Part shown: piece by piece, positions 46,914-64,000 of the stretch | Position numbering within the stretch: the first letter of the stretch is position 1 | Layout: every line of letters begins with the position of its first letter | Assembly (NCBI GenBank): GCA_020629635.1 | Contig: JAHDCX010000001.1 | Location: forward strand, 325,043-389,042 | Direction: 5' to 3' | DNA from: Acidimicrobiales bacterium | Lineage (GTDB): Bacteria > Actinomycetota > Acidimicrobiia > Acidimicrobiales > SHLQ01 | DNA length: 64,000 nt | Notes under the pieces: generated by a model | Told to the model about the DNA's origin: nothing | Databases searched by the model: none | The model's input: only the letters and a program-made list of their open reading frames with translations | Program-made: the position numbers and the translations under genes

Positions 46914-47089
46914 CAGGAATCCCTGGTAGCAGTGGGGTGAATCACTCCCAGGGGTGTCGTTTGCAAATGGATTTGCAAATGCCCGGGCCCGATCCATGCT
47001 CCTGGCGCTCGCCACCTTCGCCCTCGATTCCCGCGGAGAGTGTCACACCGCGCTGGGATGATGGGTGGCGACCGAAAGGAACCATCCTC
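46914..47089. promoter_or_regulatory. Island left boundary: hairpin and repeated ATTTGCAAAT-type sites
   Basis: Just after the tRNA come outer arms CCCTGG (46921-46926) and CCAGGG (46948-46953) enclosing a second imperfect inverted repeat. Next are two 9-base direct repeats TTTGCAAAT (46960-46968, 46972-46980), each the core of a palindrome, 12 bases apart. They could be arm-type integrase sites, an operator, or part of the promoter for the TIR operon. AAAGGA at 47075 serves the next gene. Confidence 0.45.
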
Positions 47090-48279: not shown

Positions 48280-49683
48280 TCACTGGTCGCTCGGCAGAAT
48301 CAGTCCTGCCACTCGCTCGGCGGCGTCCGACTGGAGCGGTGCTCGGACGTGGGTGTAGATGTCGGCGGTGATGCGTTCGCTGGCGTGGTTGAGTCGGTCT
48401 TGGACGACCTTCATCGGCACCCCGGCTTCAAGGGCGACGGTGGCCCAGCCGTGACGGAGAGCGTGGAGGCTGATCGTCGGTAGCGGTTCGGCGGGGTGGT
48501 CGCGGTTGTAGCGGACCTGGGCTCGTTTGAACTCTCGGCTGAATCGTTCGGGGTGGAGGTAGTCGCCGTTCGGCTGAGCGAAGACGAGGTCGCGGACGTG
48601 GTAGCCAGCGAGGTCGCAGCCGGGTTCGGGCGATGCGCATACGTGGCTGGTGCCGGCGGCGAGGCGTTCCTGGTTCTGGATCGATCGCCAGGTCTTGAGG
48701 ATGGCGAGGGTGCCTTGGTCGAGGATGATGGCGTGGTTCTCGCCGGTCTTGCCTTAGGTCTTTACGACGAGCTGGTGGTTGACGCAGGTGACGGTCCAGA
48801 TGAGGGCGGCGGTGCCTTGCTCGAAGTCGATGTCTTGCCAGCGGATTCCGAGGTTGGCGCCGCGGCGGTCGCCGGACGTGGCGATGAACGCCCATGCGAC
48901 CCAGTAGCGGTGGTCGGTGCTGCGGGCCCATTCGAGGAAGGTCCGCGTTTGTTCGGCGGTCCACATTGGCCGCTCGGTCTTGGCCTTGGGCTTGCGTGGG
49001 GGTGTTGCATTTCGGGCGACGTTGTCGTTGACGAGGCCGAGCTTCACGGCGTCCTTCAGCGAGCGGCTGATGATCGTGTGGATGTAGCGGACCGTGCGGA
49101 CGGCCAAGTTGCCCTGGTTCTTCGACGCGTTCTTGGACCGGCGCACGATGGCGGCGACGGCGTCCTTCGAGAGCGGCTTTTCGTCGGGGAACTCCTCGGC
49201 GATCTTGTTGGCGATGGCGGTGTAGCTGACGCCTTGGGAGCGTAGGTAGGCGATGCGAGGATAGATCTTCGGGTCGTGGCGTCGGTTCGACGAGTCGTCG
49301 ACTCCGATTTCTTGCTTCTGGAGATCTCGGTACAGGTCGTTGAGGTGGATGGGTCCGAGCTGCTGGAGCTTGATGCCGCCGATGCGAGGCAGGATGTGGA
49401 CGCGCATGTTGCGCTCGTAGGACTCGATCGTGGAGCTCTCGAGCTGGTCATCGAGCTGGGGAAGCCAGAGCCGCTCGACGTAGTCGGCGTAGCTCATCCT
49501 CGATGGCTCGATGAAGGTGCCCTGCTCGGTGGCCGTGATCGCCTCGCGCAACGCTCGCTGGGCGTCGGACTTCGTGGCGAACCCGCTCTTCCATCGGTAC
49601 TTGCCTTCGCCGGTGGCGGGGTCGGTGACGTACTGGACGTACGCCCACTTCTTGCCCCGCTTGCGGACGTGCCCGGTCGCCAT
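48280..49683 (-). pseudogene. Tyrosine recombinase (integrase), interrupted by in-frame TAA
   Basis: The reading frame spans 467 codons plus stop, with one internal TAA at 48754-48756 (codon 310). Before it: arm-binding domain (HVRKRGKKWAYVQYVTDPAT), core-binding domain and catalytic Arg in TSGDRRGANLGIRW. After it the frame continues without shift: HALRHGWATVALEAG (H-x-x-R), VVQDRLNHASERI and the nucleophile in ADIYTHV. All catalytic residues exist, but on opposite sides of the stop. An insert at about residues 127-192 carries an HTH-like segment. It lies 3 bases downstream of the excisionase-like gene. It may be dead, read through, or a sequencing error. Confidence 0.88.
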
Positions 49684-49686
49684 GAC

Positions 49687-49974
49687 CTATCCCGCTGCCT
49701 CGGTGGCCGTGGGGCCACGCAACAACGACGACAGGAGCATCGGGACGGGAACGAGGAGGCGGCGGCCAAGGCGGACGCACGGGATCGTGCCGTCCTTGAT
49801 GCCTTCTCTGACAGATTTCTCGGAGACTCTGAGCACTGAAGCAGTCTCGCGGGTGGTGAGGACAGCCTTGCTGCCGATGCCGAGCATGTCGGCCCATTGG
49901 TCGAGGCGCAGGTCGTCGAGCGGCTCGGAGGTCTGCTCGGTGTGGCCGGCTTCGTTGGTCGGGGTGGCGCTCAT
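49687..49974 (-). CDS. Excisionase-like helix-turn-helix protein
   Basis: The 95-residue protein has a MerR/Xis-type winged-helix segment: VLTTRETASVLRVSEKSVRE followed by GIKDGTIPCVRLGRRLLVPV, the standard helix-turn-helix plus wing of small excisionases (HTH_17). Its place between the transglycosylase and the integrase, with ATGA overlap at its start, supports a role as recombination directionality factor. The first 45 residues are acidic and unrecognised. Confidence 0.85.
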   Translation of the reverse strand: MSATPTNEAGHTEQTSEPLDDLRLDQWADMLGIGSKAVLTTRETASVLRVSEKSVREGIKDGTIPCVRLGRRLLVPVPMLLSSLLRGPTATEAAG

Positions 49975-51173
49975 TCGTCGTCTCCTTGTTCGATGCGTGG
50001 CAGTGGGGTGATCTGGTCGAGCCATTGGCTCCAGTTGGTCGTGGCCTGGCCTTGGATGCACCCGGCGGACGGTGCGGCGGCGGGGTTGATGGGTTGGCCG
50101 CGGTGGATGGCGAGTAGGAGTGGTTGCGGGCAGATCGAACGGCCGGAGAAGCGGATGCCGAGGTGAAGGTGTGGGCCGGTGGTGTTGCCCGCTCCGAGCG
50201 TTCCGGGCTCGCCGCCGGACAGTCCAAGCGGCGATCCGGCTGCGACGACTTGGCCGGGAGCGACAAGTAACTGGGTGAGGTGGCAGTACGTGTACCTGGC
50301 GCCGTCGACTCCTTCGACGATCACGGTCGTGCCGCATCGGTTGGGGTCGGTCGGATAGATGCCGGCCGTTGACGCTGTCGTGACGGTGCCGGCGACCATG
50401 GAGAACAGGGGAGTGCCGAGAGGGATGCCGAGGTCGTAGGCGGGGTAGTCGTGATGTGGCCGTGTCAGTGCCGACTCGCTGGCGTAGCTCGCCGGTACGG
50501 GGAGGGCGTACCCGTCGACTGGTACTGCGGCAGCGGCCAGCGGACCGGTGTAGCGGCGGGCCCAGTCGAGGACTGCATCGACGTAGGCGGTCGAGCGGTT
50601 GTAACTGAAGACGGCGGCCTCGATGTCAACGATCTGGCCGTCAGGGCAGAGGTGTCGCCGCATTGCCGGGACGGCGTCGTAGGCGTTGTTCGGATCGGCG
50701 AGACCATCAGCGTTGGCGTCTCCGCCGAAGATGCGCCAGCTGCTTGGGATGAACTGGAACGGTCCAACGGCGCGGTCCCAGACAATGTCGCCGTCCCAGC
50801 GGCCGTCATCGGTGTCCGGGATGCGGGCGGTGCCGTTCGTCCCGTTGAGTGGGATGCCGATGATCGGCGGTCGGATGGTGCCGTCAAGTGCAATGTCCGC
50901 ACCACCGAAGCGGCCGTGGTTGGACTCGACCTTGCTGATTCCGGCCATGACCGTCCACGGCAGGCCCGGGCACTGTTGCGCCTCCTGGATGAACAGCTGC
51001 AGCAAGAGGGCCGGAATGTCCTCCATCGCTTCATCGGAAGGGTTGGACACGGTGACCGCAATGGCAGCGGAACCGGCACCACTCGATGCGACGACGACGA
51101 GCAGAATCAGGCTGAACGCTCCGGCGAGCAACACCCCGAAAATGACGGCAGCGAAGCCGGCGATGGCCTTCAT
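49971..51173 (-). CDS. Lytic transglycosylase / M23 peptidase, membrane-anchored
   Basis: The 400-residue protein has an N-terminal membrane helix (about 5-30). An SLT/MltB-like muramidase domain follows (TVMAGISKVESNHGRFGG with the catalytic Glu; WDRAVGPFQFIPSSWRIFGG; VFSYNRSTAYVDAVLDWA), then an M23 endopeptidase domain with zinc ligands in RPHHDYPAYDLGIP and GPHLHLGIRFSG. Such two-activity enzymes open the wall locally for secretion or conjugation machines in Gram-positive elements. ATG at 51173 is the start. It is the first gene of the leftward transglycosylase-xis-int operon, divergent from the Tad operon. Confidence 0.92.
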   Translation of the reverse strand: MKAIAGFAAVIFGVLLAGAFSLILLVVVASSGAGSAAIAVTVSNPSDEAMEDIPALLLQLFIQEAQQCPGLPWTVMAGISKVESNHGRFGGADIALDGTIRPPIIGIPLNGTNGTARIPDTDDGRWDGDIVWDRAVGPFQFIPSSWRIFGGDANADGLADPNNAYDAVPAMRRHLCPDGQIVDIEAAVFSYNRSTAYVDAVLDWARRYTGPLAAAAVPVDGYALPVPASYASESALTRPHHDYPAYDLGIPLGTPLFSMVAGTVTTASTAGIYPTDPNRCGTTVIVEGVDGARYTYCHLTQLLVAPGQVVAAGSPLGLSGGEPGTLGAGNTTGPHLHLGIRFSGRSICPQPLLLAIHRGQPINPAAAPSAGCIQGQATTNWSQWLDQITPLPRIEQGDDE

Positions 51174-51623
51174 GGAGCGTTCCGACGTCGACTCACGACC
51201 GTCCGAGGGACGGTGCCTGCGGGCTGTCGCGACGGTGAGCCGGAGCGGACAACCTCCGGAGGTCGTCACGTTGCGTGGCTGAATCGGCTAGGTCAAAGGC
51301 ATCATCCTCGGCTCGGTCTTGGTGCCGTTTTGGGTGCGCTGAAGCCTTGAATCTGTAGCGATCGAGGCGGTTCCACGTCCCTGGGTGGTTGTGCTCCGGT
51401 CGAAACGAACCCTTGACAGCCGCCGAACACCGTCACGTACCGTGGTTGTTGTGACGGGCGGCACGTGGCGTGCGGAGGGGCAGAGGTTGGCGACCCCAGG
51501 TGGAGGCTCGGTGTCTCGCGCCGTGTCTACGGTGGGGTTTCACCACCGGGGGACCGTGGCGCATCTCGATCGGCCGACTGAGTGCAACGGAACCCAGCGA
51601 CCACGAAGAGTGAGGTTCCCGTC
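51174..51623. promoter_or_regulatory. 450-base divergent intergenic region with promoter candidate
   Basis: No gene is supported here; an 80-codon frame at 51385-51627 has no recognisable content and ends inside the lipoprotein gene. It separates the leftward transglycosylase operon from the rightward Tad operon, so it should hold promoters for both. Candidates are TTGACA (51413-51418) with TACCGT (51438-51443) at 19 bases, and an inverted repeat CGTCAC/GTGACG (51431-51436, 51451-51456) covering the -10. Confidence 0.5.
51413..51443 (+). promoter_or_regulatory. Putative sigma-A-type promoter of island Tad operon
   Basis: TTGACA and TACCGT with a 19-base spacer, about 180 bases before the lipoprotein start. 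Spacer is long; other start sites are possible. Confidence 0.4.
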
Positions 51624-52298
51624 ATGAGAGTCACCGTCATCGCCCCGCTGTTTGCGCTCCTGATCGCAGCGGGATGCTCCTCTGGCGAGGACACGACCGG
51701 CTCGACGCCGACCACCTTCGCGGTGTCCTCGACCACGTCGACGACGGCTTCACCGACACCGACGGAGGCACCGGAGCCGACCGAGGACAGTGGCGATCCC
51801 AATGAGGCTGTGTCGACCACGACCGCCGAGACAGTGGCCGATCCCGAACCAGCGATCGAGGAAATCGTCGCCGATCGAATCCGCGGCTACTTCTCTGCCC
51901 GAGAGGCTGCGAACGCAGCTCCCGCTCCGAACCCGGACGATCCCGGCCTCGCCGAGTTCGCCGTGAGCGAGGAACTGGCCGCCGTCGTCGCCAACACGCA
52001 GACGAGGCTCGACGCCGGACAAGCGATCCGGCCTGGCGAGCAGAACCTGGCCGAGATCCGGGTCGGGTTCGTGGAGGCCGGGGCCTCAGCGGCGACGGCT
52101 GCCGCCTGTGCCGTCGACGACGGCGTGATCTTCGACGTCGCCACCGGCACCGTCGTCAACGACGACGTCGTGACGCACAACTATCAGATCAACCTCGAGC
52201 TCCACGACGGGCTGTGGAAGGTGAGCCGCATCGTGCGCGTCCAGCAGTGGGAGGGGGTGGCCGGGTGCGCGTTATCACCCGCGGACTACCCCTTCTGA
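51624..52298 (+). CDS. Island lipoprotein, first gene of Tad-like operon
   Basis: The 224-residue protein has lipobox AAGC after a short signal (MRVTVIAPLFALLIAAGC). A Thr/Ser/Pro/Glu linker (about 20-65) leads to a compact domain with repeated strands (VFDVATGTVVN, HNYQINLELHDGLWKVSRIV) that looks NTF2-like. No catalytic motif. It overlaps the next gene by 34 bases, so translation is coupled. Probably a surface component of the island secretion system. Confidence 0.75.
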   Translation: MRVTVIAPLFALLIAAGCSSGEDTTGSTPTTFAVSSTTSTTASPTPTEAPEPTEDSGDPNEAVSTTTAETVADPEPAIEEIVADRIRGYFSAREAANAAPAPNPDDPGLAEFAVSEELAAVVANTQTRLDAGQAIRPGEQNLAEIRVGFVEAGASAATAAACAVDDGVIFDVATGTVVNDDVVTHNYQINLELHDGLWKVSRIVRVQQWEGVAGCALSPADYPF

Positions 52299-53083
52299 TT
52301 GTCGCAACGCTCCTGACGGCAACGCCCGTCGGGGCGGCGGATCAGGGGGATGTGGGAATCGTCGACGGGACCGTTCGCGTCGTCGCCGTCGCCACTATCC
52401 CTGGGGAGTCGTGGGGCTCTGACAACGACTGCGTCTATGAGGTCGTGATCGAGGACGACATCGCGTTCGGCGTTTACGAGGTCGACGGCACCCGGATGTA
52501 CTCCGACTCCGGGCGCTGGCTCGGCAAGTCCTGCGAAGGCGAAGCCGTCGCCGTCGACGGGCTGTTCACGTTCCCTGAGGGTGGGGGGTTCAACACCCCG
52601 GACCTCTTACAGCAGGCGATCGACGTACTCGACCCACCAGAACCCGGCTGGGGAGCGAGTCCCGACGGCGTCGAGATCGCGATGGTGACCCAGCTGCCAA
52701 CAGCGCTCTGGGTCGACGCTGCCTACTGGAGTGGGAACTTCGTCGCCCGGGTCGAGACGCCGAGTGGCCGGGTGTGGGCCGAGGCCACGGCCGTGCCCCG
52801 GACCTCGACGTGGACACCGGGAGATGGAGCGGTCGTGAACTGTGCCGGTGGCGGCGAGCCCTGGGGGCCCGAACCGGCCACGGACGAGGCGGGCTGCTCG
52901 CACACCTACGTGCGATCGACCGCTGGTAGCGCCGGCTACGGCATGACAGTCGAGGTCGCCTTCGACGTCACGGGCAACACCAGCACCGGGGGAGTCGAGG
53001 ACCTCGGCCAGATCTTTCGAGCCTCGGCGCCGGTCCTCGTGACCGTCGGCGAGATCCAGGCAATCGAGACGAGCGGAACATAG
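52265..53083 (+). CDS. Secreted protein with PKD-like beta domain
   Basis: The 272-residue protein has a Sec signal (LPLLIVATLLTATPVGAA). The C-terminal half has the pattern of PKD/Ig-like secreted proteins common in actinobacterial conjugative clusters: ALWVDAAYWSGNFVARVETP, TSTWTPGDGAVVNCAGGGEP, CSHTYVRSTAGSAGYGMTVE and VLVTVGEIQAIET. It may be a wall or pilus-associated surface protein. GTG start overlaps the lipoprotein gene. Confidence 0.7.
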   Translation: MRVITRGLPLLIVATLLTATPVGAADQGDVGIVDGTVRVVAVATIPGESWGSDNDCVYEVVIEDDIAFGVYEVDGTRMYSDSGRWLGKSCEGEAVAVDGLFTFPEGGGFNTPDLLQQAIDVLDPPEPGWGASPDGVEIAMVTQLPTALWVDAAYWSGNFVARVETPSGRVWAEATAVPRTSTWTPGDGAVVNCAGGGEPWGPEPATDEAGCSHTYVRSTAGSAGYGMTVEVAFDVTGNTSTGGVEDLGQIFRASAPVLVTVGEIQAIETSGT

Positions 53084-53095
53084 GGAGATGAGGGA

Positions 53096-53785
53096 GTGGC
53101 GACTCAACTGAAAGAACGGGCGAAGCTGAACGGGCACGGGGAACCGATCACGATCGGCGCGCCCCCCGACGGCCATCGCCAGCGGCGGATGCCCGAGATG
53201 GCTGGCGGCCTCCTCCTGGTCGTTGTCTGTGCGCTCGGTGCGCTGTGGTGGCAGACGTCCTCGACCGAACGCCAGCCCGTGCTTGCGCTGCGGAATCCCA
53301 TCGAACGAGGCGATATCGTGCAGCTCGACGATCTCCAGATCGTCAGCATCGACACCGATCAAGCAATCGCGGTGCTCGCCGACACCGATGCCGCACAGGT
53401 CGTCGGTCGAGTGGCCCGCACCGACCTCGCTGCCGGAACCCTCGTCACTCCCGACCAGTTCAGCTCCAGCTCGACGCTCGGGGTCGATGATGGCGTCGTC
53501 GGGCTCGCTCTTGATCCTGGCCAGTTCCCGTCGCTCTCGTTGGCCCCCGGCGACGCCGTGTCGATCGTGCTCACCCCATCACCGAGCGACCCCCGAGCCT
53601 TCGACGAACAACAGACCGCCAACGTCCTCGTCGACCGGGCAACGGTGGTCGAGGTGAGTCAGCTCGGCGTGCAGGGCGGGCTGTTCGTCTCGCTGCAGGT
53701 GGACGAAGCGGACGCCGGACGCATCGCAACCGCGGCCGCCACCAACCGGGTCCGACTCATCCAGGTGTCGGAGGTGGAGGGATGA
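53096..53785 (+). CDS. SAF-domain protein, CpaB-like
   Basis: The 229-residue protein has one membrane helix (about 36-55; GGLLLVVVCALGALWWQ) and a SAF domain (LALRNPIERGDIVQLDDLQI, VVGRVARTDLAAGTLVTPDQ). It has the same role slot as CpaB of the chromosomal locus but half the length and lacks the acidic tail. GTG start at 53096 follows a GGGAGATGAGGG site. It overlaps the CpaE-like gene by ATGA. Confidence 0.85.
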   Translation: MATQLKERAKLNGHGEPITIGAPPDGHRQRRMPEMAGGLLLVVVCALGALWWQTSSTERQPVLALRNPIERGDIVQLDDLQIVSIDTDQAIAVLADTDAAQVVGRVARTDLAAGTLVTPDQFSSSSTLGVDDGVVGLALDPGQFPSLSLAPGDAVSIVLTPSPSDPRAFDEQQTANVLVDRATVVEVSQLGVQGGLFVSLQVDEADAGRIATAAATNRVRLIQVSEVEG

Positions 53786-54582
53786 CCCTCACCTGCTTCG
53801 CCTCCGCCAAAGGGGCACCCGGCGTCACGCTCACGGCACTCGGCTTCACCGCGGCAAGGGCAGCGGCGGGAACGCCGACGCTGCTTCTCGAAGCCGACCC
53901 GAGCGGCGGAAGCCTCGCAATCCGCTACCAGCTCGGGCGCCAGCCCGGCCTGATCACGCTCGCTGCGGCGAGCCGGCACGGTCTCAATCGCAACGAGATC
54001 ACAGCGCACGCCCAAGAGCTGCCGGGCGGGTTGGCCGCGATCGTTGCACCCGAGCGTCACGATCGAACCGCTGCGATCCTCCGGGCGGATGGTGGCCGCC
54101 TCGGCCGATTCCTCGCCGACCTTCCAGACCTCCACATCGTCGCCGACTGCGGTCGGCTCGACAGTGAAACGCTCGCTACCGGCCTGCCGAGCCAGGCGGA
54201 CGTGTTGTATATGCTCGCCCGACCAGTCGCCGAGGACGTCCAACCGGCGGCAGCGCTCGCCGCATCGGCTCGAGACCAGGGTGTTCCGGTTGGCTGGGTT
54301 CTCATCGGCGATCGACCTCACGACCCGGCCGAGGTTGCCGAGGTGACCGGCACCCCGGTCGCAGCTGTCTTGCCCGACGACCATCGGGCCGCCACGGCGA
54401 TGGCCGAAGGCCGAGCCGAGGGACGTGGGCGGCGAAGTCGCCTGGCGCGTGCGATCTCCGCGTTCGCCGCTGAGACGGCACCGCTCGGAAGCGGTGAGGA
54501 AGCTGAGCAGTCGCCGGCCAGGGTGGAGCCCACTGCTCACGAGCCGAAGCCGTTGGCGGAGCTCGCCACGGAGGTCGGCTGA
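53782..54582 (+). CDS. CpaE/MinD-like protein with degraded P-loop
   Basis: The 266-residue protein has a ParA/MinD-like core: FASAKGAPGVTLTALGFTAA at the place of Walker A, LLLEADPSGGSLAIRYQLGR in the switch region and HIVADCGRL. The Gly-Lys-Thr of Walker A is Gly-Val-Thr, so ATP hydrolysis is doubtful. The C-terminal 60 residues are Glu/Pro-rich. It overlaps TadA by TGATG. Likely positions or regulates the island pilus ATPase. Confidence 0.82.
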   Translation: MTLTCFASAKGAPGVTLTALGFTAARAAAGTPTLLLEADPSGGSLAIRYQLGRQPGLITLAAASRHGLNRNEITAHAQELPGGLAAIVAPERHDRTAAILRADGGRLGRFLADLPDLHIVADCGRLDSETLATGLPSQADVLYMLARPVAEDVQPAAALAASARDQGVPVGWVLIGDRPHDPAEVAEVTGTPVAAVLPDDHRAATAMAEGRAEGRGRRSRLARAISAFAAETAPLGSGEEAEQSPARVEPTAHEPKPLAELATEVG

Positions 54583-55892
54583 TGTTCGACTCGACCCTCG
54601 TCAATCGCCTGCACGCAGCCGTGGGGGAGGCGTTGGACGAACGTGATGCGAGCGACGAACGTGAACAGCGTCGAACGCTGACCCACGACGACCGCCGCCA
54701 GTTCGCCCGCCAACTGATCACCAAGCAACTCGCCGGGCTCGACTCGCAGCGTCTCGCCGACGGCCAGCCGCCGATCACCGACGCGGAGTCGAAGCAGCTG
54801 ACGGTTGCGGTGATGAACCGGCTGTTCGGGCTCGGCCGACTTCAGGCCTACATCGACGACCCGCAATGGACCGATATCCACGCCAACGGCTGCGACCAGG
54901 TCTGGCTCCTTCGCAACGACGGTGCCGTCGTCGAGGGCGCTCCGATTGCAGACTCCGATGCAGAGCTCATCGAGCTGATTCAGACACAAGCCCGCAGAGG
55001 ACGCAGCGAACAACGTTGGGATCCGGCCAGCCCGGAACTCGACATGCGCCTTCCGTCGGGCGACCGACTCCACGCCATCGCGTGGGTGTCTGGCCGCCCG
55101 TCGGTCTCGATCCGGCGGCACAACTTCGACATCGGCCATCTCAAGCAACTGATCGGGATGGGGACCATCTCCGAGTCGCTCTACCACCTGCTCCGAGCGA
55201 TGGTCGCGGCCCGCTTTAACGTCATCGTGGCCGGCGGAACCGGAGCCGGGAAGACCACCCTGCTCCGCTGCCTGCTGAACGAGGTTGCGGTCGACGAGCG
55301 CATCATCACGGTTGAGGACTCGCTCGAGATCGGGCTCGAGCACTTCGCCCACCTGCACCCCAACCACGTCGATCTCGAAGCGCGAGAGGCGAACCTCGAA
55401 GGCGTCGGCGAGTTCCCCATGCACCGCCTCGTTCGATCCGGACTGCGCATGCAGCCCGACCGAGTGATCGTCGGAGAGGTCCGAGGAGCCGAAGCGCTTC
55501 CAATGATGCTCGCCATGTCCCAGGGCAACGACGGCTCGATGTGCACCATCCACGCCGACTCCAGCCTCGGCGTGTTCACCCGGCTCCAGATGTACATGGC
55601 GATGACCCCGGAGCGCTTCGACGTCGAGGTCACCAACCTCATGATCGCCAACGCCGTCCACTTCGTCGTTCACCTCGCCCGGCTCGACACCAACGAGCGG
55701 GTCGTCACGAGCGTCCGCGAGATCACCGGCGCCGACGGCCCAATGGTCACCTCCAACGAGGTCTACGCGCCCGGAGCGGACGGTCGAGCGATGCCCCGAT
55801 TCGGCCTCAGCGATTCGAGCATGGCCAGGCTTGAGCGCTGCGGATTCGACTCTTCGTGGCTGCAGCCGAAGCACGCGGTATGGGCACGATGA
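54582..55892 (+). CDS. tadA: TadA/CpaF-type secretion ATPase (island copy)
   Basis: The 436-residue ATPase has an N-domain (NRLFGLGRLQAYIDDPQWTD, IHANGCDQVWLLRNDG), Walker A VAGGTGAGKTTLLRCLLNEV, Asp box TVEDSLEIGLEHF, Walker B RMQPDRVIVGEVRGAEALPM, and the His box NDGSMCTIHADSSLGVF. A VirB11/TadA hexamer energises pilus assembly or secretion. Its sequence is far from the chromosomal CpaF, so the island system is not a recent duplicate. Overlaps TadB by ATGA. Confidence 0.94.
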   Translation: MFDSTLVNRLHAAVGEALDERDASDEREQRRTLTHDDRRQFARQLITKQLAGLDSQRLADGQPPITDAESKQLTVAVMNRLFGLGRLQAYIDDPQWTDIHANGCDQVWLLRNDGAVVEGAPIADSDAELIELIQTQARRGRSEQRWDPASPELDMRLPSGDRLHAIAWVSGRPSVSIRRHNFDIGHLKQLIGMGTISESLYHLLRAMVAARFNVIVAGGTGAGKTTLLRCLLNEVAVDERIITVEDSLEIGLEHFAHLHPNHVDLEAREANLEGVGEFPMHRLVRSGLRMQPDRVIVGEVRGAEALPMMLAMSQGNDGSMCTIHADSSLGVFTRLQMYMAMTPERFDVEVTNLMIANAVHFVVHLARLDTNERVVTSVREITGADGPMVTSNEVYAPGADGRAMPRFGLSDSSMARLERCGFDSSWLQPKHAVWAR

Positions 55893-56743
55893 GCGGACTC
55901 GTTGCCGTGCTGGCCGGAACAGGCGTTGGCCTTGGCCTGTGGCTGTTCTTCGCTGGACTGAGGGGCGCACGCCTGCTTCCGGACCTTCGATCGTTTCTTC
56001 CCCCTGGTCTCGAAAGCGAGAAGGCTCTCGCCTGGATCGCCAGTGCGGCTGTGGGCGCGGCGCTCGTGTTCGCCATGACCGGTTGGCCTGTGGCCGCAGT
56101 CATCACCGGTGGCACGATCTTCTGGCTACCCAGACCGCTGGCGGCGCGATCGGAACGGGCCGACGAGTCAGCGAAGACCGAAGCGATCGCCTCGTGGGCA
56201 GAGATGATCCGAGACAACATCGCCGGCTCGGCGGGCCTCGAACAGGCCCTTATCGCCTCGGCGTCGGTCGCCCCGACCGCCATCGCTCCTGAGCTTCGTC
56301 GCTTCGCTGGTCGCGTCGACCGGATGTCGACGGTCGACGCGTTGATCCGACTCGGCGAGGACCTCGATCATCCGTCAGCCGACCTCGTGGTCGTTGCCCT
56401 CGTCAACGCAGCCCGGATGGAAGCTCGCGAACTCGGCCCGTTGCTCGGCCGGCTCGCCGACACGATCCGGGCAGACGTGCGGATGCGGCTCCGAGTGGAG
56501 GTCGGCCGAGCGCGGATCCGAACATCCGCCCGCATCGTCGTCGCTACGACGCTCGTCACCATCGCGTTCCTGTTCGCCTTCTCGCGGCAACTCCTCGAGG
56601 CCTACGACTCCACGACCGGCCAGGTCTGGCTGGTCGTCGTGGCTGGCGTGTTCGCGCTCGGCGGCTGGATGCTCCACAGCTACGGCCAGATCGACATGCC
56701 GGAGCGGTTCGCCGCTCGCACGACGATGGGTCCCCAGCAATGA
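55889..56743 (+). CDS. tadB: TadB-like platform protein (island copy)
   Basis: The 284-residue protein has N-terminal membrane helices (VAVLAGTGVGLGLWLFFAGL; AAVITGGTIFW), a GspF core (EMIRDNIAGSAGLEQALIAS, LVVVALVNAARMEARELGPL) and two C-terminal helices (IVVATTLVTIAFLFAFS, WLVVVAGVFALGGWMLH). No VWA fusion, unlike the chromosomal homologue. ATG 55889 overlaps the TadA stop; an ATG at 55880 is possible. Confidence 0.88.
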   Translation: MSGLVAVLAGTGVGLGLWLFFAGLRGARLLPDLRSFLPPGLESEKALAWIASAAVGAALVFAMTGWPVAAVITGGTIFWLPRPLAARSERADESAKTEAIASWAEMIRDNIAGSAGLEQALIASASVAPTAIAPELRRFAGRVDRMSTVDALIRLGEDLDHPSADLVVVALVNAARMEARELGPLLGRLADTIRADVRMRLRVEVGRARIRTSARIVVATTLVTIAFLFAFSRQLLEAYDSTTGQVWLVVVAGVFALGGWMLHSYGQIDMPERFAARTTMGPQQ

Positions 56744-57696
56744 CCAGCGTCGTCATGCTCCTGCTCGGTGCCGGCGTCGGCCTTGGCTTGTGGATGTCGC
56801 TTCGCAGCTGGCAACCACGTCCCGTGCCGCTCGAACAGGTCAGCGTCATCCTCGACCGCCAAGGCGTTCCCATCGGGACGACTGTCGACGAAGCTCAGCT
56901 CGCCGGAGGGCAGTCACTGCTCGCCTCGGCCGGTGCGAACCTGATGCGAGCGATCGGCCAGGCGGACAAGCCGAGTCTCGCGGAGCAGCTTCGGGTGCTT
57001 GACAAGTCGATGGAGCGCCACGCCTACGAGAAGATGCTCGGCGCAACCGCCGGGTTCGCGCTACCGGTCCTGACCGGCGCCGTGATGCTGGCTGGGGGAG
57101 TGGCGGTCTCGCCGATCGTCCTCCTGCTCGTCGGGCTCGCCGCTGCTGTTGTGGGCTTCTTCTATCCCGATCTCCCACTGGCCGAACGAGTCGAGGATCG
57201 ACGGAGAGCATTCAGGCACGCGTTCTCCGCCTACCTCGACCTCGTCACGATCCTCCTCGCCGGAGGCGCAGGAATCGAGTCGGCACTCGAAGGCGCCGCC
57301 GAGTCCGGCGACGGATGGGCCTTCGCCAAGATCCGCAGCGCACTCCGTCGAGCCCGCCTCACCCGCCGCACACCGTGGGACGCCTTCGATCAGCTCGGCC
57401 ACGAGCTCGGCGTCAACGAACTCATCGAACTCGCATCGTCGGTCTCGCTGGCCGGCGACCACGGCGCCCGAGTCAAAGGGTCACTCACCGCCAAGGCCGA
57501 CGCACTGCGAGCAACCCAAGCCGCCGAGCTCGAAGCGGCCGCCGAGACCCGCACCGAGAAGATGATCGTCCCCGTCGTCGTCATGATCCTCGGCCTCGTG
57601 CTCTTCATCGCCTTCGGAGCAGTCGACGCCATCACCGACGGCGGCTCCAGCCAATTCGCGCCAACGACACCGATCTCGACACCTGGAGGGAGTTGA
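56740..57696 (+). CDS. tadC: TadC-like platform protein (island copy)
   Basis: The 318-residue protein has a membrane helix at the start (VVMLLLGAGVGLGLWMS), two mid helices (TGAVMLAGGVAVSPIVLLLV, GLAAAVVGFFYPDLP), a GspF core (FSAYLDLVTILLAGGAGIES, LGVNELIELASSVSLAGDHG) and a C-terminal helix (IVPVVVMILGLVLFIAFGAV). Forms the inner-membrane platform with the TadB-like protein. ATGA overlap with it. Confidence 0.88.
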   Translation: MTSVVMLLLGAGVGLGLWMSLRSWQPRPVPLEQVSVILDRQGVPIGTTVDEAQLAGGQSLLASAGANLMRAIGQADKPSLAEQLRVLDKSMERHAYEKMLGATAGFALPVLTGAVMLAGGVAVSPIVLLLVGLAAAVVGFFYPDLPLAERVEDRRRAFRHAFSAYLDLVTILLAGGAGIESALEGAAESGDGWAFAKIRSALRRARLTRRTPWDAFDQLGHELGVNELIELASSVSLAGDHGARVKGSLTAKADALRATQAAELEAAAETRTEKMIVPVVVMILGLVLFIAFGAVDAITDGGSSQFAPTTPISTPGGS

Positions 57697-57775
57697 CGCC
57701 GGGAGCGTGTCGCGAGAACAGCAACCGAAGCGTCCCTGGGGCAACCCGGTGACATCAACAGAAAGCAGACAACCA

Positions 57776-58000
57776 ATGGAGACGATCAGGGGCTACTACG
57801 ACTTCTGTCACCTGGCCATCGAGTACAACCTCAACCGAGCGGGCGTCGACATCCGCGACGAGCGCGGCGCCGTGTCGACCGAGATGGCCGTCGTCATGGC
57901 AGCGATGGTGGCCATCGCCGTCGCCCTCGGCGCCATCTTCATCGCTAAGGCGCAGAGCAACGCCAACAACATCCCCGACACCGTCCCGGCACCTGCCTGA
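57776..58000 (+). CDS. Flp-like major pilin of island system
   Basis: The 74-residue prepilin has a longer leader (ETIRGYYDFCHLAIEYNLNR...) ending DERG, then AVSTEMAVVMAAMVAIAVAL; Gly-1 and Glu+5 are kept, Tyr+6 is Met. One hydrophobic helix and a short Asn/Pro-rich tail. ATG 57776 is preferred; a GTG at 57707 would add 23 unconserved residues. The stop overlaps the next start (TGATG). Confidence 0.85.
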   Translation: METIRGYYDFCHLAIEYNLNRAGVDIRDERGAVSTEMAVVMAAMVAIAVALGAIFIAKAQSNANNIPDTVPAPA

Positions 58001-58410
58001 TGCGGCCACGGGCACCGAGAAGAGCACGGCAGAGTGACGGTCGCGAGCGGGGAGCCGCCGCGACCGAACTCGCCGTGCTCATGCCGGTGCTGATCGTCCT
58101 CGTCCTCATCCCGGTCCAGGTCGGACTGTGGTGGCACGCCAAACAAGCCGCCGAAACCGCCGCCGGCGAGGCGCTCGACGCCGCCCAGGTCGAAAGTGCC
58201 ACGGCAGCCCGCGGCCAGGCCGGCGCGTCGGCGATTCTGAGTCAGGCGGGAAACCTTGAGAACGTCACGATCCACGTCGATCGATCCGCCACCACCGTCG
58301 CCGTCACGGTGTCGGGCGAACTCGGCTTCAGCCTCTTCCCGGGAGCCTGGGGCGTCACCGCGCACGCCGAGGGCGAGATCGAACGGTTCATCGCACCGGG
58401 GGAACGATGA
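58000..58410 (+). CDS. TadE-like minor pilin
   Basis: The 136-residue protein has a basic leader ending RERG, then AAATELAVLMPVLIVLVLIP (TadE hallmark with Glu+5), and a globular C-terminal domain (KQAAETAAGEALDAAQVESA; TVAVTVSGELGFSLFPG). Pseudopilins of this type prime or cap Tad pili. Overlaps neighbours at both ends. Confidence 0.88.
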   Translation: MRPRAPRRARQSDGRERGAAATELAVLMPVLIVLVLIPVQVGLWWHAKQAAETAAGEALDAAQVESATAARGQAGASAILSQAGNLENVTIHVDRSATTVAVTVSGELGFSLFPGAWGVTAHAEGEIERFIAPGER

Positions 58411-58829
58411 GAAGGCTCGCTTCCGAACGTGGTGCCGTGTCCACCGAGTTCGCCGTGATCATGGCGGCCTTCCTCACCTCGTTCATGCTGATCGTCGTGT
58501 TCGCCGGGCGAGTCGCAACCGCCGAGAACCACGTGCGTGCCGCTGCCCAGGAAGCGGCACGCTCCGCCAGCCTCGCCGGCACCCCCGAAGCCGCTGTCGC
58601 CGCAGCGCAACAGACGGCCGCAGGCAACCTCTCCAGTAGCGGTCTCACCTGTGCCTCGGGACTCGACGTCGCGGTCGACACTGCACAGTTCGCGCCCGGC
58701 GGATGGGTCGGCGTGACGGTCTCGTGCGAGACGCCGTTCAGCGATGTCGCGTCTCTGTCGGTCCCGGGCACCAAGACCTTCACGGGGACAGCGACCGAGG
58801 TGATCGACACGTACCGGAGCGACCCGTGA
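58407..58829 (+). CDS. TadE-like minor pilin 2
   Basis: The 140-residue protein has leader MRRLASERG, then AVSTEFAVIMAAFLTSFMLI with Glu+5, and the typical VRAAAQEAARSASLAGTPEA helix followed by beta strands. Two cysteines (LTCASGLD and VSCETPF) could form a disulphide. ATGA overlap with the previous gene and GTGA with the next. Confidence 0.87.
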   Translation: MRRLASERGAVSTEFAVIMAAFLTSFMLIVVFAGRVATAENHVRAAAQEAARSASLAGTPEAAVAAAQQTAAGNLSSSGLTCASGLDVAVDTAQFAPGGWVGVTVSCETPFSDVASLSVPGTKTFTGTATEVIDTYRSDP

Positions 58830-59236
58830 ATCGCCTCGACCGTTCAGACGAGCGCGGCTCGGTGAGCGTGCTGGTGGCCGTCCTGGCCATCGCATTCTTG
58901 ATGGTCGCGGGACTGGCGCTCGACGGCGGCCGCAAACTCGGCGCCCTGTCCGAGGCGCGAGACCTCGCCGACAACGCCGCCCGAGCTGGAGCGCAAGCCG
59001 TCGACACCGACGCCTACCAACTCACCGGTGCTCCGACCCTCGATCCAGTCGACGCCGAGCAAACAGCGCTCGCGTACCTCGCCGCCACCGGCCATACCGG
59101 AACGGTCGCCGTGGACGGATCAACCGTGACGGTGACCGTGAGCCTCAGCGTCCCGACTCGATTCCTGCCCGGCCCGTTCACCGTTCACGCAACCGAATCG
59201 GCCACTGCAGTCTTCAGCGTGGAAGGAACCCCATGA
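58826..59236 (+). CDS. TadG-like membrane/pilus assembly protein
   Basis: The 136-residue protein has leader DRSDERG then SVSVLVAVLAIAFLMVAGLA. It lacks Glu+5, so it may not be processed as a pilin. ALDGGRKLGALSEARDLADN, ARAGAQAVDTDAY matches the N-terminal TadG pattern. The large VWA part of full TadG is absent. GTG start at 58826. Confidence 0.82.
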   Translation: MNRLDRSDERGSVSVLVAVLAIAFLMVAGLALDGGRKLGALSEARDLADNAARAGAQAVDTDAYQLTGAPTLDPVDAEQTALAYLAATGHTGTVAVDGSTVTVTVSLSVPTRFLPGPFTVHATESATAVFSVEGTP

Positions 59237-62200
59237 TCCGCCGACTCACCGACCTCGCCAAGGGCCTCCTCGCCATCGCCGCCATCGCCGCGTTGCTCAT
59301 CGGCGTGCCGTTGCTGGTCTACCGCCTCGGTGGCATACCCGGCTCGTCCGTCGTCGAAGCGTTCACCGATCCACTGACATCGGATACCACTCGCAGCGAG
59401 CGGCTCCTCGCAGGCACCCTCGGAATCATCGCATGGTTGTGCTGGTTGCAGGTGGCCTACGCCCTCGTCGCCGAGATCGTGGCTGCGGCCAGGGGCACAG
59501 TCGCCAACCGGGCACCGATCCTGCCGGGCATCCAGGCAGCGGCCTCTCGTCTGGTCACCACCGCCACGCTCGTCGCTGGGTCGTTCGGTCAAACCGCAAC
59601 AGTGATGGCCGTGCCGCTCGCTCCCGTGGTGACCATGGAGCCTGCCGTCGCCGCACCACTCGTTGTCGACACAGGCATCCGAACGGTCGACTCGGCCACG
59701 GGCCGGATCGAGACCCCCGGCCCGACCTACACGACGGGGGAGCGAGACACCTTCTGGAGTGTCGCCGAGACCCTGCTCGGCGACGGGCTCCGATGGAGCG
59801 AAGTGCGCGACGCCAACGTCGGTCGCCTCATGCCGGACGGAACGACCATCCATTCGACGACCGAGGAGCTCGGCGCCGGATGGGATCTCGTCCTACCGCA
59901 CGACGCCGTCCTGCCTCTCCAACCTCAGGCCGGCGATCCGACGCCCGCTGCCAACGCCGAGGCAGTCGAAGACTGGATCGACGTCGAACACGGCGACCAC
60001 TTCTGGTCCATCGCCGAAGAGGCGCTCACCGATGTGTGGGGACGAGCCCCGACCGACACCGAGATCGCGCCGTACTGGGCCGAGTTGGTGCAGACCAACG
60101 ACGGCCGTCTTCTCCCACCCGAGGATCCGAACCTCATCTACCCCGACCAACGATTCCTACTCCCGCCGATGCCCGAGGACCCCACCGTGCCCGAAGCCGA
60201 GGAATATCCGACCGACTCGGCCACACCCACGGAAGTGCCTCGGGCGCCAGCCGAGGAAGCGCCCGAACCTGCCCCATCCACCACGACCTCGGCAACGACT
60301 GCGCCGTCAACCACGATCGCCGAGCCGCCGTCGACGACCGTCGTCCAGACCCCAGACCTCACCCAGGCCGCAGCCGCAGACGAGACGAGCATCCCGTTGG
60401 CCTCAGTAGCGCTCGGTCTCGGAGCGGTCAGCGTTGGCGCCGGCTCCCTTGCGGTCACGCTTCGCCGTCGCCGTGGTCACCAGGCCGCGAAACGCCAGCC
60501 CGGAACCACTCTCGAGCCGCCAGCCGACGATCTGATCGAGTACGAGCAACGAATCCGGCCGGTCGCCGACACGGAGGCATCCCGATGGGTCGCCGCCACC
60601 AACAAGCTCATCACCGCCCGTCTGGCCACCCAGACGTCGCACCGCCTGCCCGCCGTCGTCGCAATGCGGGCCGGTCGCTTCGGCGTCGAGGTTCTGCTCG
60701 ATGAGCCGTGCGCGCCGCTCGAAGGCTTCGTACCTGGCAACGCCCAGAACAGCGCATGGCGCCTCCACCCCGATCTCGAACTCCGCATGATCGAAGCGGA
60801 AACGGAGGATGCGCAGCCCTACTGCCCAGCGCTCGTCACGGTCGGCACAACCGAGGCAGGAGACCTGCTGCTCGACCTCGAACAGATCGGCGTGCTCAGC
60901 GTCGAGGGTGACGAGGACACCGCACACTCGTGGTTCCGCAGCATTGCGACCAGCATCGCTGCCGCCGAATGGAGCCAGCTCTGCGAGGTTGTTGCTGTAG
61001 GAGGAATCGAGGGGATCGACCGTCTCGCTTCGGTCACGGCTTCCGAGGATGCCGAGGCGTGGGTCGCCAGGACGGTGACGTCGATGCGGAAGCTCCACGA
61101 CCGGCTCGAAGCGACTCCCTACGAACAGCGCGTGAAGCCGGGCGAGATCTTCCACCCCACCGTAGTGCTGGTAGCGGCGGAAGAGGCGGACGCAGCCAAC
61201 GCGCTCGCCGAGGCCGCCGCTCTCGTGAACACGCCTCTGTCGGTCGTCGCCGCGTGTCCGCTCCCGGTCGCCGACCGAGTCCACCTCGATCCGCGGCGAG
61301 GCACCCTCGAACCAATCGGCGTCGAGTTTGAGCCCGCCCTCACCGAGCCCGTCGAAGCGACTGCCGTCGCCGAACTGCTCGACAACGCCGAACATGCCGA
61401 GGTGATGGACGCCCCCGAGCCGGAAGTGGTAGCTCCGGAGCCGGCAGAAGGTCGGGAACCGGTTGCTGACGTGATCGAGCGTGTGATGGCGCCCAAGCCG
61501 ATCGAGGTCCGGCTGCTCCGGCCGAAGCCGTCGGTCGATGGGCTGGAGAGTGATCCACCCGCCAAGCAGCTCTCGGTCATCTGCTACCTGGCGTACCATC
61601 GCTCGGTCACCTCGCAGCGTCTGCGCGACACCTTTTGGCCGAACGCCACGAGCCGCAAGACAGCCGACAACGCCATCAGCCAGATCCGCACGATGCTTGG
61701 CGTCTCCGAGGACGGCGATCAGCGACTGACCCAGGCCATCAACACCGGCGAGAATCAACTCAGTGACGACGTCGGCTGTGACTGGCGCCGAGCCGAAGCG
61801 CTCATTAATGCCGCGCGAGGCCGTCCGGCAGCGGAACAGATGGAGCTGCTGGCTACGGCTCTCGAACTCGTCGGCGGTCAGATTGGAGCGGACGCACCAG
61901 CACGGCAGTTCGCGTGGTTGGTCGACGATCACCAGGTCTACGGCCATATGGAACGAGTCCTCGTCGACGCCGCGTCCGCGCTGGGCGAGCTGGCCCTTGA
62001 GGCAAGCGACCTACGGGTTGCGGATGCCGCCGCCAGGGCGGGGTTTAAGCTTGTCCCAGGAAGCGAGACGATGTGCCGCCTCCGCATGCGATCCGCGTCT
62101 CGACGAGGTGACGGCAGCGGGGTCGAAGAGGCGTATGCGGCGGCGACCCAAGCGGCCCTAAGGAGTGGCCTTTGGACCGACGTCGAGGCCGAGACTGCAG

Positions 62201-62253
62201 CGATGTGGGAGGAGTTGGGCCCAGGTCGGGGGCCCGAGGCTGCGTCGCCATAG
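59233..62253 (+). CDS. Large membrane protein: LysM-like repeats plus winged-helix/BTAD-like C-terminus
   Basis: The protein has 1006 residues. Two N-terminal membrane helices (GLLAIAAIAALLIGVPLLVY; LAGTLGIIAWLCWLQVAYAL) precede two LysM-like repeats (about 165-220 and 250-312; GERDTFWSVAETLLGD, HGDHFWSIAEEALTDVWGRA). A Pro/Thr/Glu linker and a third membrane helix (SVALGLGAVSVGAGSLAVTL, near 395) follow. The C-terminus (from about 760) has a SARP-type winged helix (VICYLAYHRSVTSQRLRDTF, AISQIRTMLGVSEDG) and a BTAD-like helical region. It could bind wall peptidoglycan outside and DNA or proteins inside. Overlaps the TadG-like gene by ATGA. Confidence 0.85.
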   Translation: MIRRLTDLAKGLLAIAAIAALLIGVPLLVYRLGGIPGSSVVEAFTDPLTSDTTRSERLLAGTLGIIAWLCWLQVAYALVAEIVAAARGTVANRAPILPGIQAAASRLVTTATLVAGSFGQTATVMAVPLAPVVTMEPAVAAPLVVDTGIRTVDSATGRIETPGPTYTTGERDTFWSVAETLLGDGLRWSEVRDANVGRLMPDGTTIHSTTEELGAGWDLVLPHDAVLPLQPQAGDPTPAANAEAVEDWIDVEHGDHFWSIAEEALTDVWGRAPTDTEIAPYWAELVQTNDGRLLPPEDPNLIYPDQRFLLPPMPEDPTVPEAEEYPTDSATPTEVPRAPAEEAPEPAPSTTTSATTAPSTTIAEPPSTTVVQTPDLTQAAAADETSIPLASVALGLGAVSVGAGSLAVTLRRRRGHQAAKRQPGTTLEPPADDLIEYEQRIRPVADTEASRWVAATNKLITARLATQTSHRLPAVVAMRAGRFGVEVLLDEPCAPLEGFVPGNAQNSAWRLHPDLELRMIEAETEDAQPYCPALVTVGTTEAGDLLLDLEQIGVLSVEGDEDTAHSWFRSIATSIAAAEWSQLCEVVAVGGIEGIDRLASVTASEDAEAWVARTVTSMRKLHDRLEATPYEQRVKPGEIFHPTVVLVAAEEADAANALAEAAALVNTPLSVVAACPLPVADRVHLDPRRGTLEPIGVEFEPALTEPVEATAVAELLDNAEHAEVMDAPEPEVVAPEPAEGREPVADVIERVMAPKPIEVRLLRPKPSVDGLESDPPAKQLSVICYLAYHRSVTSQRLRDTFWPNATSRKTADNAISQIRTMLGVSEDGDQRLTQAINTGENQLSDDVGCDWRRAEALINAARGRPAAEQMELLATALELVGGQIGADAPARQFAWLVDDHQVYGHMERVLVDAASALGELALEASDLRVADAAARAGFKLVPGSETMCRLRMRSASRRGDGSGVEEAYAAATQAALRSGLWTDVEAETAAMWEELGPGRGPEAASP

Positions 62254-62305: not shown

Positions 62306-63340
62306 ATGGCTGTAACGGTGTCGCTGTTCTCGGGATGCGGGGGATTGGACCTGGGCGCGGAGTCGGCGGGGGCGGAGGTTCAGGCCGCTCTCGAGATTGA
62401 CGACGATGCTGCCGACTCCCTCGAGAAGAACTTCCGTCACCTTGCTGGTCCCGTCGTGCGGCAAGACATCCTGGAGGTTGCAACAGATCATCTGTTGGCT
62501 CCTCTTCGCTCCGACCCGGATCTGCTGATCGGCGGTCCGCCGTGTACCCCGTTCTCAAAGAGCGGCATGTGGCTCGAGTGGAAGCGGGATGGTCTCGACC
62601 CCGACGCATCTCTGCTTGATGAGTACGTGAGGATCCTCCGCGAGGCACAGCCGAGGGCGTTCATCCTGGAGAATGTCCGAGCGCTGACTTTCAACAACAA
62701 GCAGTCGCGGCCCTCGTTCGAACGCCTCCTTCGAGGGATCAGGAAGGCTGGCTACGACTGCCGATTCGACGTCCTGAATGCTGCGGACTTTGGTGTGCCG
62801 CAAAACAGGCAGAGGCTCTTCGTCGTCGGTTCACGGAGAGGTACCCCCGTCCCGGAGCTGCCTTTGCCCACGCACTTTGGGATGGTCGAGCGCTCGCATT
62901 CGGGCGGTGGTGACACTCCTCACACCACAGCGGGAGAAGCACTTCGGCGTGTTCGGAGCGAGCCCGAGAGCGGTGAGCTGATGACGGGGAAGTGGGCCGA
63001 CCTGCTCCCTGGCATTCCGCCCGGCAACAACTACCTCTGGTACACGGAACGCGGCGGTGGCGATCCATTGTTCAAGTGGCGTTCGCGGTACTGGAACTTC
63101 CTCTTGAAACTCTCTCCGGAGGCGCCCTCACCGACAATTCAAGCGCAGCCCGGCCCAAACGTGGGTCCCTTTCATTGGGAGAATCGGAGACTGAGAGTGC
63201 CTGAGGTGAAGGCTCTGTTTGGCTTCCCGCCGTCCTTCGAGATCTGCGGCACTCGACGGGCAGCGCAAGCTCAGTTGGGTAACTCAGTGCCGCCGCCGCT
63301 CGCAGCGGCCGTCACTGCCTCAGTTCTTCAAAGTCTCTAG
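62306..63340 (+). CDS. DNA (cytosine-5-)-methyltransferase
   Basis: The 344-residue C5 methyltransferase shows motif I VSLFSGCGGLDLGAESAGAE, catalytic Cys in LLIGGPPCTPFSKSGMW, motif VI FILENVRALTF, motif VIII VPQNRQRLFVVGSRRG, and motifs IX-X LRVPEVKALFGFP, QLGNSVPPPLAAAV. The target recognition part is short. The specificity cannot be read. It lies 52 bases after the BTAD protein and 8 bases before an unrecognised gene that may be its restriction or accessory partner. Confidence 0.95.
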   Translation: MAVTVSLFSGCGGLDLGAESAGAEVQAALEIDDDAADSLEKNFRHLAGPVVRQDILEVATDHLLAPLRSDPDLLIGGPPCTPFSKSGMWLEWKRDGLDPDASLLDEYVRILREAQPRAFILENVRALTFNNKQSRPSFERLLRGIRKAGYDCRFDVLNAADFGVPQNRQRLFVVGSRRGTPVPELPLPTHFGMVERSHSGGGDTPHTTAGEALRRVRSEPESGELMTGKWADLLPGIPPGNNYLWYTERGGGDPLFKWRSRYWNFLLKLSPEAPSPTIQAQPGPNVGPFHWENRRLRVPEVKALFGFPPSFEICGTRRAAQAQLGNSVPPPLAAAVTASVLQSL

Positions 63341-63347
63341 GGACACC

Positions 63348-64000
63348 TTGTCTAGGGCGCGACTCGCTGCAGACCTGGCCGCGAGAACGCCCGCGCTCGC
63401 CCTGTCAGATCGAGGGAGCGGTTGGCCGGCGCTGTTCGTGGCGAACATTGACGGACGGCCTGTCGAGTTGGCTGCGTTCCTGGGTCCGATCGGCCTCAGC
63501 CATCGCAATCGAGACGACGATGAGCGGCGTTTTCAGAATCCGGGGAAGGATCGGCCGATAGCACTTCCCGAAGGGCTGCGGCCCCTGCTCTTCGGCATTT
63601 GGACAGAGGATCTCGGCGACGAATTGCCGGAGCCAGTGATCAGCGTCGCCGATGTACATCGACGAGTCGGCCGCTCGACACGCTTCTCTGTCTTCACCCC
63701 CCTCGATACCTTGAGAGAAGCGCTCTCCTGCGGGTGGGCGGAGACCCGCTCCGAGACCGGTGAACGGCTGATCTGTTTCAGGCTGGAGCACCTGCAGGAA
63801 TTCCTAGAAGTCCACTGTGGAGTGGAGGGAGAACAATCCTCCGGACTGGTGAGTGCTATCGATCGCGAGCTCATCAGCGCTGGACTCACCGCTGATGAGG
63901 CCCTCGCCAAGCTTCGCAGATACCGGTCGTTGGAGGACGCCGCCTCTCACCTCGGACTAGCCGCAGGGGTGCTTCATGCGATCTACGAGCAGAGTGGCAG
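63348..64000 (+). CDS. Unrecognised protein after the methyltransferase, TTG start, runs off window
   Basis: The frame is open from TTG 63348 to the right edge (217 codons). AGGGA stands 4-5 bases upstream of the TTG, good support for this start; there is no ATG near the 5' end. It begins LSRARLAADLAARTPALALS, continues WPALFVANIDGRPVELAAFL, and contains VISVADVHRRVGRSTRFSVF and LREALSCGWAETRSETGER. No catalytic motif is seen in the visible part. Position suggests a restriction endonuclease or R-M accessory factor, but that is only inference. Confidence 0.7.
   Translation, partial: MSRARLAADLAARTPALALSDRGSGWPALFVANIDGRPVELAAFLGPIGLSHRNRDDDERRFQNPGKDRPIALPEGLRPLLFGIWTEDLGDELPEPVISVADVHRRVGRSTRFSVFTPLDTLREALSCGWAETRSETGERLICFRLEHLQEFLEVHCGVEGEQSSGLVSAIDRELISAGLTADEALAKLRRYRSLEDAASHLGLAAGVLHAIYEQSG

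Follow-up and report, generated by a model that had tools for sequence, protein, structure and literature searches.

The Tad-type pilus operon in the region analysed here probably makes the mating-contact pilus of a conjugative T4SS, and we read the region as the left half of a ~75.7-kb T4SS/MOBF ICE inserted at a tRNA-Leu(GAG) gene of an actinobacterium that, judging by named relatives, most likely belongs to the class Acidimicrobiia. The window, that is, the whole 64,000-nucleotide stretch that was analysed, corresponds to C31:325043-389042 of the source draft genome (G000, 4.45 Mb), so that adding 325042 to a window coordinate gives the coordinate on contig C31. The tRNA-end repeats, integrase and xis genes, Tad operon, wall hydrolase, T4SS core, coupling protein and relaxase can all be recognised in the sequence. 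From these we infer that the pilus is produced with the help of a host prepilin peptidase, that it has a role in mating and that the present copy is mobile. A mating pilus is the best-supported role of the Tad genes because many elements link these genes to conjugation genes.

The tRNA-Leu(GAG) gene that serves as the integration site lies at window 46827..46913 on the forward strand (ARAGORN), and the attL core, GTTCAAGTCCCCCCTCCGACACCACA, occupies 46890..46915 (+) as one copy of a perfect 26-bp direct repeat. Following contig C31 rightward, attR was located beyond the window at C31:447581-447606 as an exact 26-bp copy of the tRNA-Leu(GAG) 3' end; the two ends match exactly over 26 bp and at 94% over 34 bp. 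The island between the repeats, from window 46890 to the point equal to 122564, measures ~75.7 kb. A putative integrase arm-type site, GGGGTGTCGTTTGCAAATGGATTTGCAAATGCC, lies at 46951..46983 (no strand assigned), with similar copies elsewhere on the island: the arm-like repeat, beginning GGGGTGTCGTTTGCAAATGG, stands 37 bp inside attL and ~135 bp inside attR, with one internal copy at C31:427646. The attachment-site repeats and the 3' end of tRNA-Leu(GAG) thus support a tRNA-integrated mobile element. At the orthologous tRNA-Leu site of a sister species (G006), the right flank resumes 34.5 kb later (76% over 111 bp), and the insert there, ~34.5 kb, differs from the Tad island; the site is therefore a hotspot with different occupants. 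A TadA search of 10 same-genus genomes found no island-type TadA. The preliminary description had named one finding that would count against an island: relatives carrying the Tad cluster here without int and xis, and hence a core-chromosome origin. No such cluster was encountered, and with the different insert in G006 that origin is ruled out.

An intact Tad-type operon of 12 genes occupies window 51624-62253 on the forward strand, with ORFs that overlap or almost touch in one open run. It begins with a lipoprotein gene (51624..52298), whose homologues occur in most T4SS-linked Tad loci and whose product gave a poor structure model (pLDDT 47), and a gene for a secreted protein (52214..53083, start uncertain) that is conserved in the cluster; its former designation, "PKD-like", has to be dropped, as neither Pfam nor NCBIfam returned a match. 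These are followed by a SAF protein of the RcpC/CpaB-like kind (53096..53785; Pfam SAF, 47 bits) and a CpaE/TadZ-like protein with a degenerate P-loop (53782..54582), recognised by a weak ParA/CbiA match and syntenic homologues, in which the GKT/GKS P-loop motif was not matched. The TadA/CpaF secretion ATPase (54582..55892) was identified by its T2SSE match (PF00437, 129 bits), its motifs and its place in the tree, and the Walker A, Asp-box, Walker B and His-box of a Tad/Flp ATPase are all intact. Two T2SSF platform proteins are encoded next, TadB (55856..56743; Pfam 21.9 bits, below cut-off, syntenic with confirmed homologues) and TadC (56740..57696; Pfam 44 bits). The pilin motif G/xxxxE was found in the Flp-like pilin (57707..58000; G/AVSTE) and in two pseudopilins matching Pfam PF07811, TadE1 (58000..58410; GAAATE) and TadE2 (58407..58829; GAVSTE). 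A TadG-like protein (58703..59236; Pfam PF13400), whose true start is probably near 58826, precedes the last gene of the operon (59233..62253), which encodes a LysM/BTAD-type membrane protein; the earlier "LysM" label holds for its homologues, annotated LysM/BTAD, while the direct LysM match is weak.

With 12 genes, Pfam matches and 26-bp tRNA-end repeats, the preliminary view of a Tad-like machine on a tRNA-Leu-integrated island was borne out. It had also called the machine complete, which needs qualifying: no A24 prepilin peptidase (TadV/CpaA) was found on the island. Only two A24 peptidases occur in the source genome, on contigs C3 and C1, and a host prepilin peptidase could serve the island pilins. 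The Tad clusters of pAL1 and pKRAD01 carry their own prepilin peptidase. The source genome also holds a second, diverged island-type Tad cluster on contig C1 (L047:1481-8422), with one of these two A24 peptidases ~8 kb beyond it at C1:16381. An ordinary chromosomal TadA/Tad cluster lies at window ~18823-19839 (C31:343865-344881), 27 kb left of the island, and in G006 an ordinary TadA is on the same contig as the tRNA-Leu site. Chromosomal Tad/Flp clusters of the source genome, such as the one at ~18.8 kb, share TadA, TadB/C, Flp and TadE/G with the island, but their TadA belongs to a different clade: in the tree, the chromosomal controls form one supported clade (98/97) and the island TadA falls outside it.

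The transfer genes lie to the right of the window. The absence of a VirB4 or coupling ATPase and of a relaxase, previously noted for the window, is true inside it, but these genes start ~5 kb past its right end, on the same island, and the T4SS set as a whole lies 7-22 kb beyond the Tad operon. A gene for an SSB-domain protein (C31:393645-394361, reverse strand) is followed on the forward strand by a DUF6112-like small membrane protein (C31:394438-394770), with weak, sub-threshold T4SS_pilin and DUF6112 matches, and by a single-TM protein (C31:394767-395447) with a VirB8/NTF2-fold domain in the predicted structure of a close homologue. In the model built from that homologue (L195), the core pLDDT is above 90, and the structure comparison list is headed by T4SS proteins of the VirB8 type (IcmL-like 5cnl, Z 12.6; pIP501 TraM, Z 12.5; DotI; VirB8), with general NTF2-like folds one to two Z lower. 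The same strand then encodes a SCO6881-like TrbL/VirB6 protein (C31:395444-396709; Pfam and NCBIfam matches), SCO6880 (C31:396706-398205; 197 bits), a VirB4/TraG-type P-loop ATPase (C31:398037-399530, start uncertain; PF19044 29.9 bits against a cut-off of 25.8, and VirB4-like NCBIfam) with the P-loop GMVGSGKS, and a VirD4/TraG-type coupling protein (C31:402594-404915; PF02534 74 bits, PF12696 61 bits) with the P-loop GPSQSGKT. On the reverse strand, C31:404912-408916 encodes a TrwC relaxase-helicase of the MOBF class (PF08751 230 bits, AAA_30 helicase 165 bits) in which the HEH motif is present. No VirB11 gene was recognised in the island T4SS.

By its gene content, the island is a T4SS-type actinobacterial ICE (MOBF) of the kind described by Ghinet et al. 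2011 (PMC3218068), because a VirB4-type ATPase, a VirD4-type coupling protein, VirB6- and VirB8-like proteins and a MOBF relaxase stand on the same island. Those ICEs resemble it in their tyrosine integrase, VirD4-type T4CP, VirB4-type ATPase, TrwC and tRNA site; their description does not mention a Tad pilus in its text, whereas the island has a full Tad operon beside its T4SS. The mating pilus that had been suggested for a new kind of conjugative element is retained as the best-supported role, but the element itself is of a known type. Extension to the right, proposed in the preliminary description as a check, yielded the relaxase and the VirD4-type coupling protein; an FtsK/TraB-type translocase was not found among the island proteins searched, and identity as an AICE is rejected given the T4SS and relaxase in its place. 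A phage origin was likewise not supported, as VirB4 and T4CP gave no PHROGs match and no SCO6880 was present in the viral contigs scanned.

We then assessed the linkage of Tad and T4SS genes in other genomes. Island-type TadA is well separated among 345 genomes of the class, scoring 255 bits or more against 228 or less for the rest. Tad genes in the same order, with a divergent M23 gene and then DUF6112 - TrbL - SCO6880 - VirB4, were found in G353, G258 (4 loci), G300, G057, G023 and G020, and the layout was followed up to contig ends in G221 and G021. In most linked loci the divergent transglycosylase/M23 gene separates the Tad genes from the T4SS; in G353 and in the window it is found instead at the opposite end of the Tad operon. 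A MOBF relaxase adjoins island-type Tad genes in G086, G156, G164 and a second G020 locus, and diverged Tad genes adjoin the T4SS/M23 layout in G046 and G205. T4SS core genes were absent from all six chromosomal Tad loci used as controls, one of which has a TrwC-like relaxase 14 kb away. Several linked elements also lie at or near tRNA genes: in G086, Tad, TrwC, T4CP and M23 genes lie between 48-bp tRNA-Met repeats 69.3 kb apart, the G353 element adjoins a tRNA-Leu(GAG) gene, with a repeat of a tRNA end, and another tRNA-Leu(GAG) gene is near the G057 locus.

A reverse scan seeded solely with SCO6880 gave 29 loci, 22 of which had 5 kb or more of DNA upstream; LysM/Tad genes lie upstream in the same orientation in 14 of these 22, and in the isolate Cellulomonas sp. 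Root930 the genes from TadA to T4CP form a single run. Across 346 genomes, SCO6880 is present in 19 of the 35 with island-type TadA versus 19 of the 311 without (Fisher p = 6.5e-12, uncorrected for ancestry, closely related genomes not being independent). Tree distances correlate for TadC-VirB4 (r 0.93), LysM-VirB4 (r 0.80) and TadA-TrwC (r 0.76), and host phylogeny may contribute to these values; the TadA-VirB4 correlation is below significance (r 0.53, p 0.077), with the diverged G046 TadA, which has a very long branch in the tree, among its rows. Most compared relatives are MAG contigs, some of them probably mis-binned. Near-identical (97%) or related T4SS loci (L195-L198, L203, L215) were also seen in MAGs labelled Rhodobacteraceae, Alphaproteobacteria and Phycisphaerales, and probably represent mis-binned mobile DNA.

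The order Tad operon - SCO6880 - VirB4 recurs on pTC1 of Paenarthrobacter aurescens TC1 and pNOCA01 of Nocardioides sp. JS614, both recorded in PLSDB as conjugative and MOBF. In each, the Tad genes end in the LysM protein before SCO6880 and the VirB4-type ATPase, and pNOCA01 also has a T4CP; unlike the island, both are large circular plasmids rather than ICEs, with a TadA ~37% identical to the island's. Taken together, these comparisons show the Tad-T4SS pairing in many elements of actinobacteria, as well as in some plasmids, across several families. The preliminary description had named a complete, unrelated transfer system to the right as a finding that would count against its reading; a transfer system is present there but, since its linkage to Tad is repeated elsewhere, it is not unrelated. 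Earlier authors noted tad genes beside conjugation genes on Cutibacterium acnes plasmids, where they call the functional link of the pili to conjugation unclear (PMC5696575), and on the Sulfobacillus thermotolerans pL15/pY0017/Kr1 element (PMC6803676). Both layouts differ from the SCO6880/MOBF one: the former plasmids have FtsK/TraB-like, VirB4 and TcpC genes, with no relaxase found in the text of PMC5696575, and the latter element has a MOBP relaxase. Those reports are each single cases; the present comparison adds that one layout recurs, in Acidimicrobiia ICEs as well as in actinomycete plasmids. Found both on ICEs and on named plasmids from cultured strains, it lends broad comparative support to a link between Tad and conjugation, although linkage of genes does not by itself establish their function.

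The strongest competing reading, which we hold to be unlikely but still a serious contender, is that the Tad genes are adhesion or biofilm cargo that serves the host in surface or cell-cell attachment and stands beside the T4SS only through shared mobile DNA. Tad pili are known chiefly as adhesins, and the element also bears defence genes between its Tad and T4SS modules, as well as metal genes. The two modules also occur apart. Tad-type clusters without a nearby T4SS are common in the class and are found on Streptomyces plasmids; many island-type Tad clusters in f35 and f7 genomes have no T4SS gene within the flanking stretches examined; and the linear plasmid pAL1, described as conjugative, has a Tad cluster with its A24 peptidase (L225:8442-20123) and no T4SS nearby. 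Conversely, related T4SSs occur without adjoining Tad genes: Iamia plasmid 2 has one with MobF, and the T4SS loci L222 and L223 of Cellulomonas have no Tad within 10 kb. On plasmid 1 of Iamia sp. SCSIO 61187, the final gene of the Tad operon is reduced to its BTAD end (L151:29641-31098), which lies near IS3 transposases beside a MobF/T4SS set that looks intact, an apparent loss of Tad from a T4SS/MobF element. Because each module exists without the other, Tad is an accessory of transfer and not an obligatory part of it. Against simple cargo stands the constancy of the arrangement: cargo varies by element, but Tad keeps its position and order beside M23 - DUF6112 - T4SS across families and actinomycete plasmids, and the distances of the Tad and transfer modules agree.

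Gram-positive T4SSs are usually considered to be without an adhesive pilus for conjugation. No such pilus is recognised in the T4SS here, and under the preferred reading as a mating-contact pilus Tad would supply one. TrwC would nick the excised circle at a presumed oriT and pass on one DNA strand, which the VirD4-type coupling protein and the T4SS with SCO6880 and VirB4 would receive, and the transglycosylase/M23 enzyme would open the cell wall. Tad pilins cut by the host prepilin peptidase would form a filament (Flp/TadE pilins, TadA motor, TadB/C, SAF collar) that extends, grips the recipient and probably draws donor and recipient together. Such a role can be likened to that of the type IV pili of IncI plasmids in liquid mating: IncI2 TP114 depends on them for mating in broth but can do without them on a solid support (PMC9045228). 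That type IV filament, encoded on the plasmid besides its T4SS, stabilises mating pairs in liquid, as the Tad pilus would here; the likeness is one of role only, as the IncI pilus is a Gram-negative PilS/PilV type with a shufflon, whereas the island's is an actinobacterial Tad/Flp type whose pilin genes match TadE/Tad families. If this holds, the recurrent Tad-T4SS-MOBF layout addresses the question of how Gram-positive donors find recipients, and Tad pili would serve mating contact and extend the spread of genes, which on this island include cargo for copper resistance and phage defence.

A closer coupling, which we consider improbable, would make Tad and T4SS one joint machine, in which a retractile Tad pilus brings the walls of donor and recipient together where the T4SS is, and TadA, as a member of the VirB11 ATPase family, additionally powers the T4SS, for which no VirB11 gene was recognised. 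If true, it would constitute a distinct Gram-positive mating-apparatus type, spread by ICEs and plasmids across Actinomycetota.

The integration genes bear on the mobility of the present copy. As the preliminary description had it, a divergent transglycosylase/M23 gene, xis and int lie beside the Tad operon, all on the reverse strand: a lytic transglycosylase-like and M23 peptidase gene for a VirB1-like wall opener (49971..51173; Pfam M23 plus weak SLT), an excisionase-like HTH_17 gene (49687..49974; Pfam, PHROGs; start codon inferred) and a tyrosine integrase gene (48280..49683; Pfam and PHROGs family match). The island thus has the direct-repeat attachment sites and integrase gene of a T4SS-type actinobacterial ICE, with the integrase frame interrupted by an in-frame TAA at 48754-48756, after residue 309; the catalytic half beyond the stop is intact. 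The TAA may be genuine or may stem from an error in sequencing. Excision and conjugative transfer of the present copy are predicted, but self-excision is doubtful and may be lost because of this stop codon.

The interrupted integrase also suits a further reading, one that we judge very improbable: a decayed composite of two or more merged elements with a dead integrase, an accidental Tad-T4SS adjacency and a silent machine. Consistent with such a history, two 15-bp att-like cores, each a copy of AACACCCCTCCGACACCACT and matching the tRNA end, lie at C31:431717 and 433014 on either side of an IS481-type transposase gene, in addition to the internal arm-like site at C31:427646; because the cores flank that transposase gene, the right part of the island is possibly an older accretion. 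Reading frames of both Tad and T4SS are nevertheless uninterrupted, the pairing is found in many independent loci, and both modules lie wholly to the left of the internal arm-like site and cores. A serine-recombinase gene piece adjoins the IS481-type transposase gene, and a cation-efflux-like gene (C31:427054-427626) is apparently truncated beside the internal arm-like site; the latter pair may mark a nested or accreted element. Least probable of all is a DNA-uptake pilus carried on a mobile element, as natural transformation of the actinobacterium Micrococcus luteus requires Flp/Tad genes (PMC4322843), but competence genes were not recognised among those island genes that were searched, and Tad is linked to a relaxase and T4SS rather than to genes for uptake.

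The remaining genes of the island are mainly candidate cargo. Between attL and the integrase gene, TIR-like (ThsB-like), 8xMP membrane and DUF7701 proteins (46937..48269, forward strand; Pfam, PADLOC) form a probable defence set. To the right of the Tad operon, a cytosine methyltransferase gene (62306-63340, forward strand; Pfam, PADLOC) is followed by that of an MTaX1 protein, and the group, which takes up 62306..64000 of the window, continues to C31:393557 with a further protein, a ParB-like protein (PD-Lambda-5-like) and a Z1 helicase (MzaC-like). Judged from its Pfam and PADLOC matches, this methyltransferase/Z1-helicase group is likely a defence cluster inserted between Tad and T4SS. An ArdC gene lies at C31:410557-411435 on the reverse strand, and copper and metal resistance genes occupy the right part of the island.
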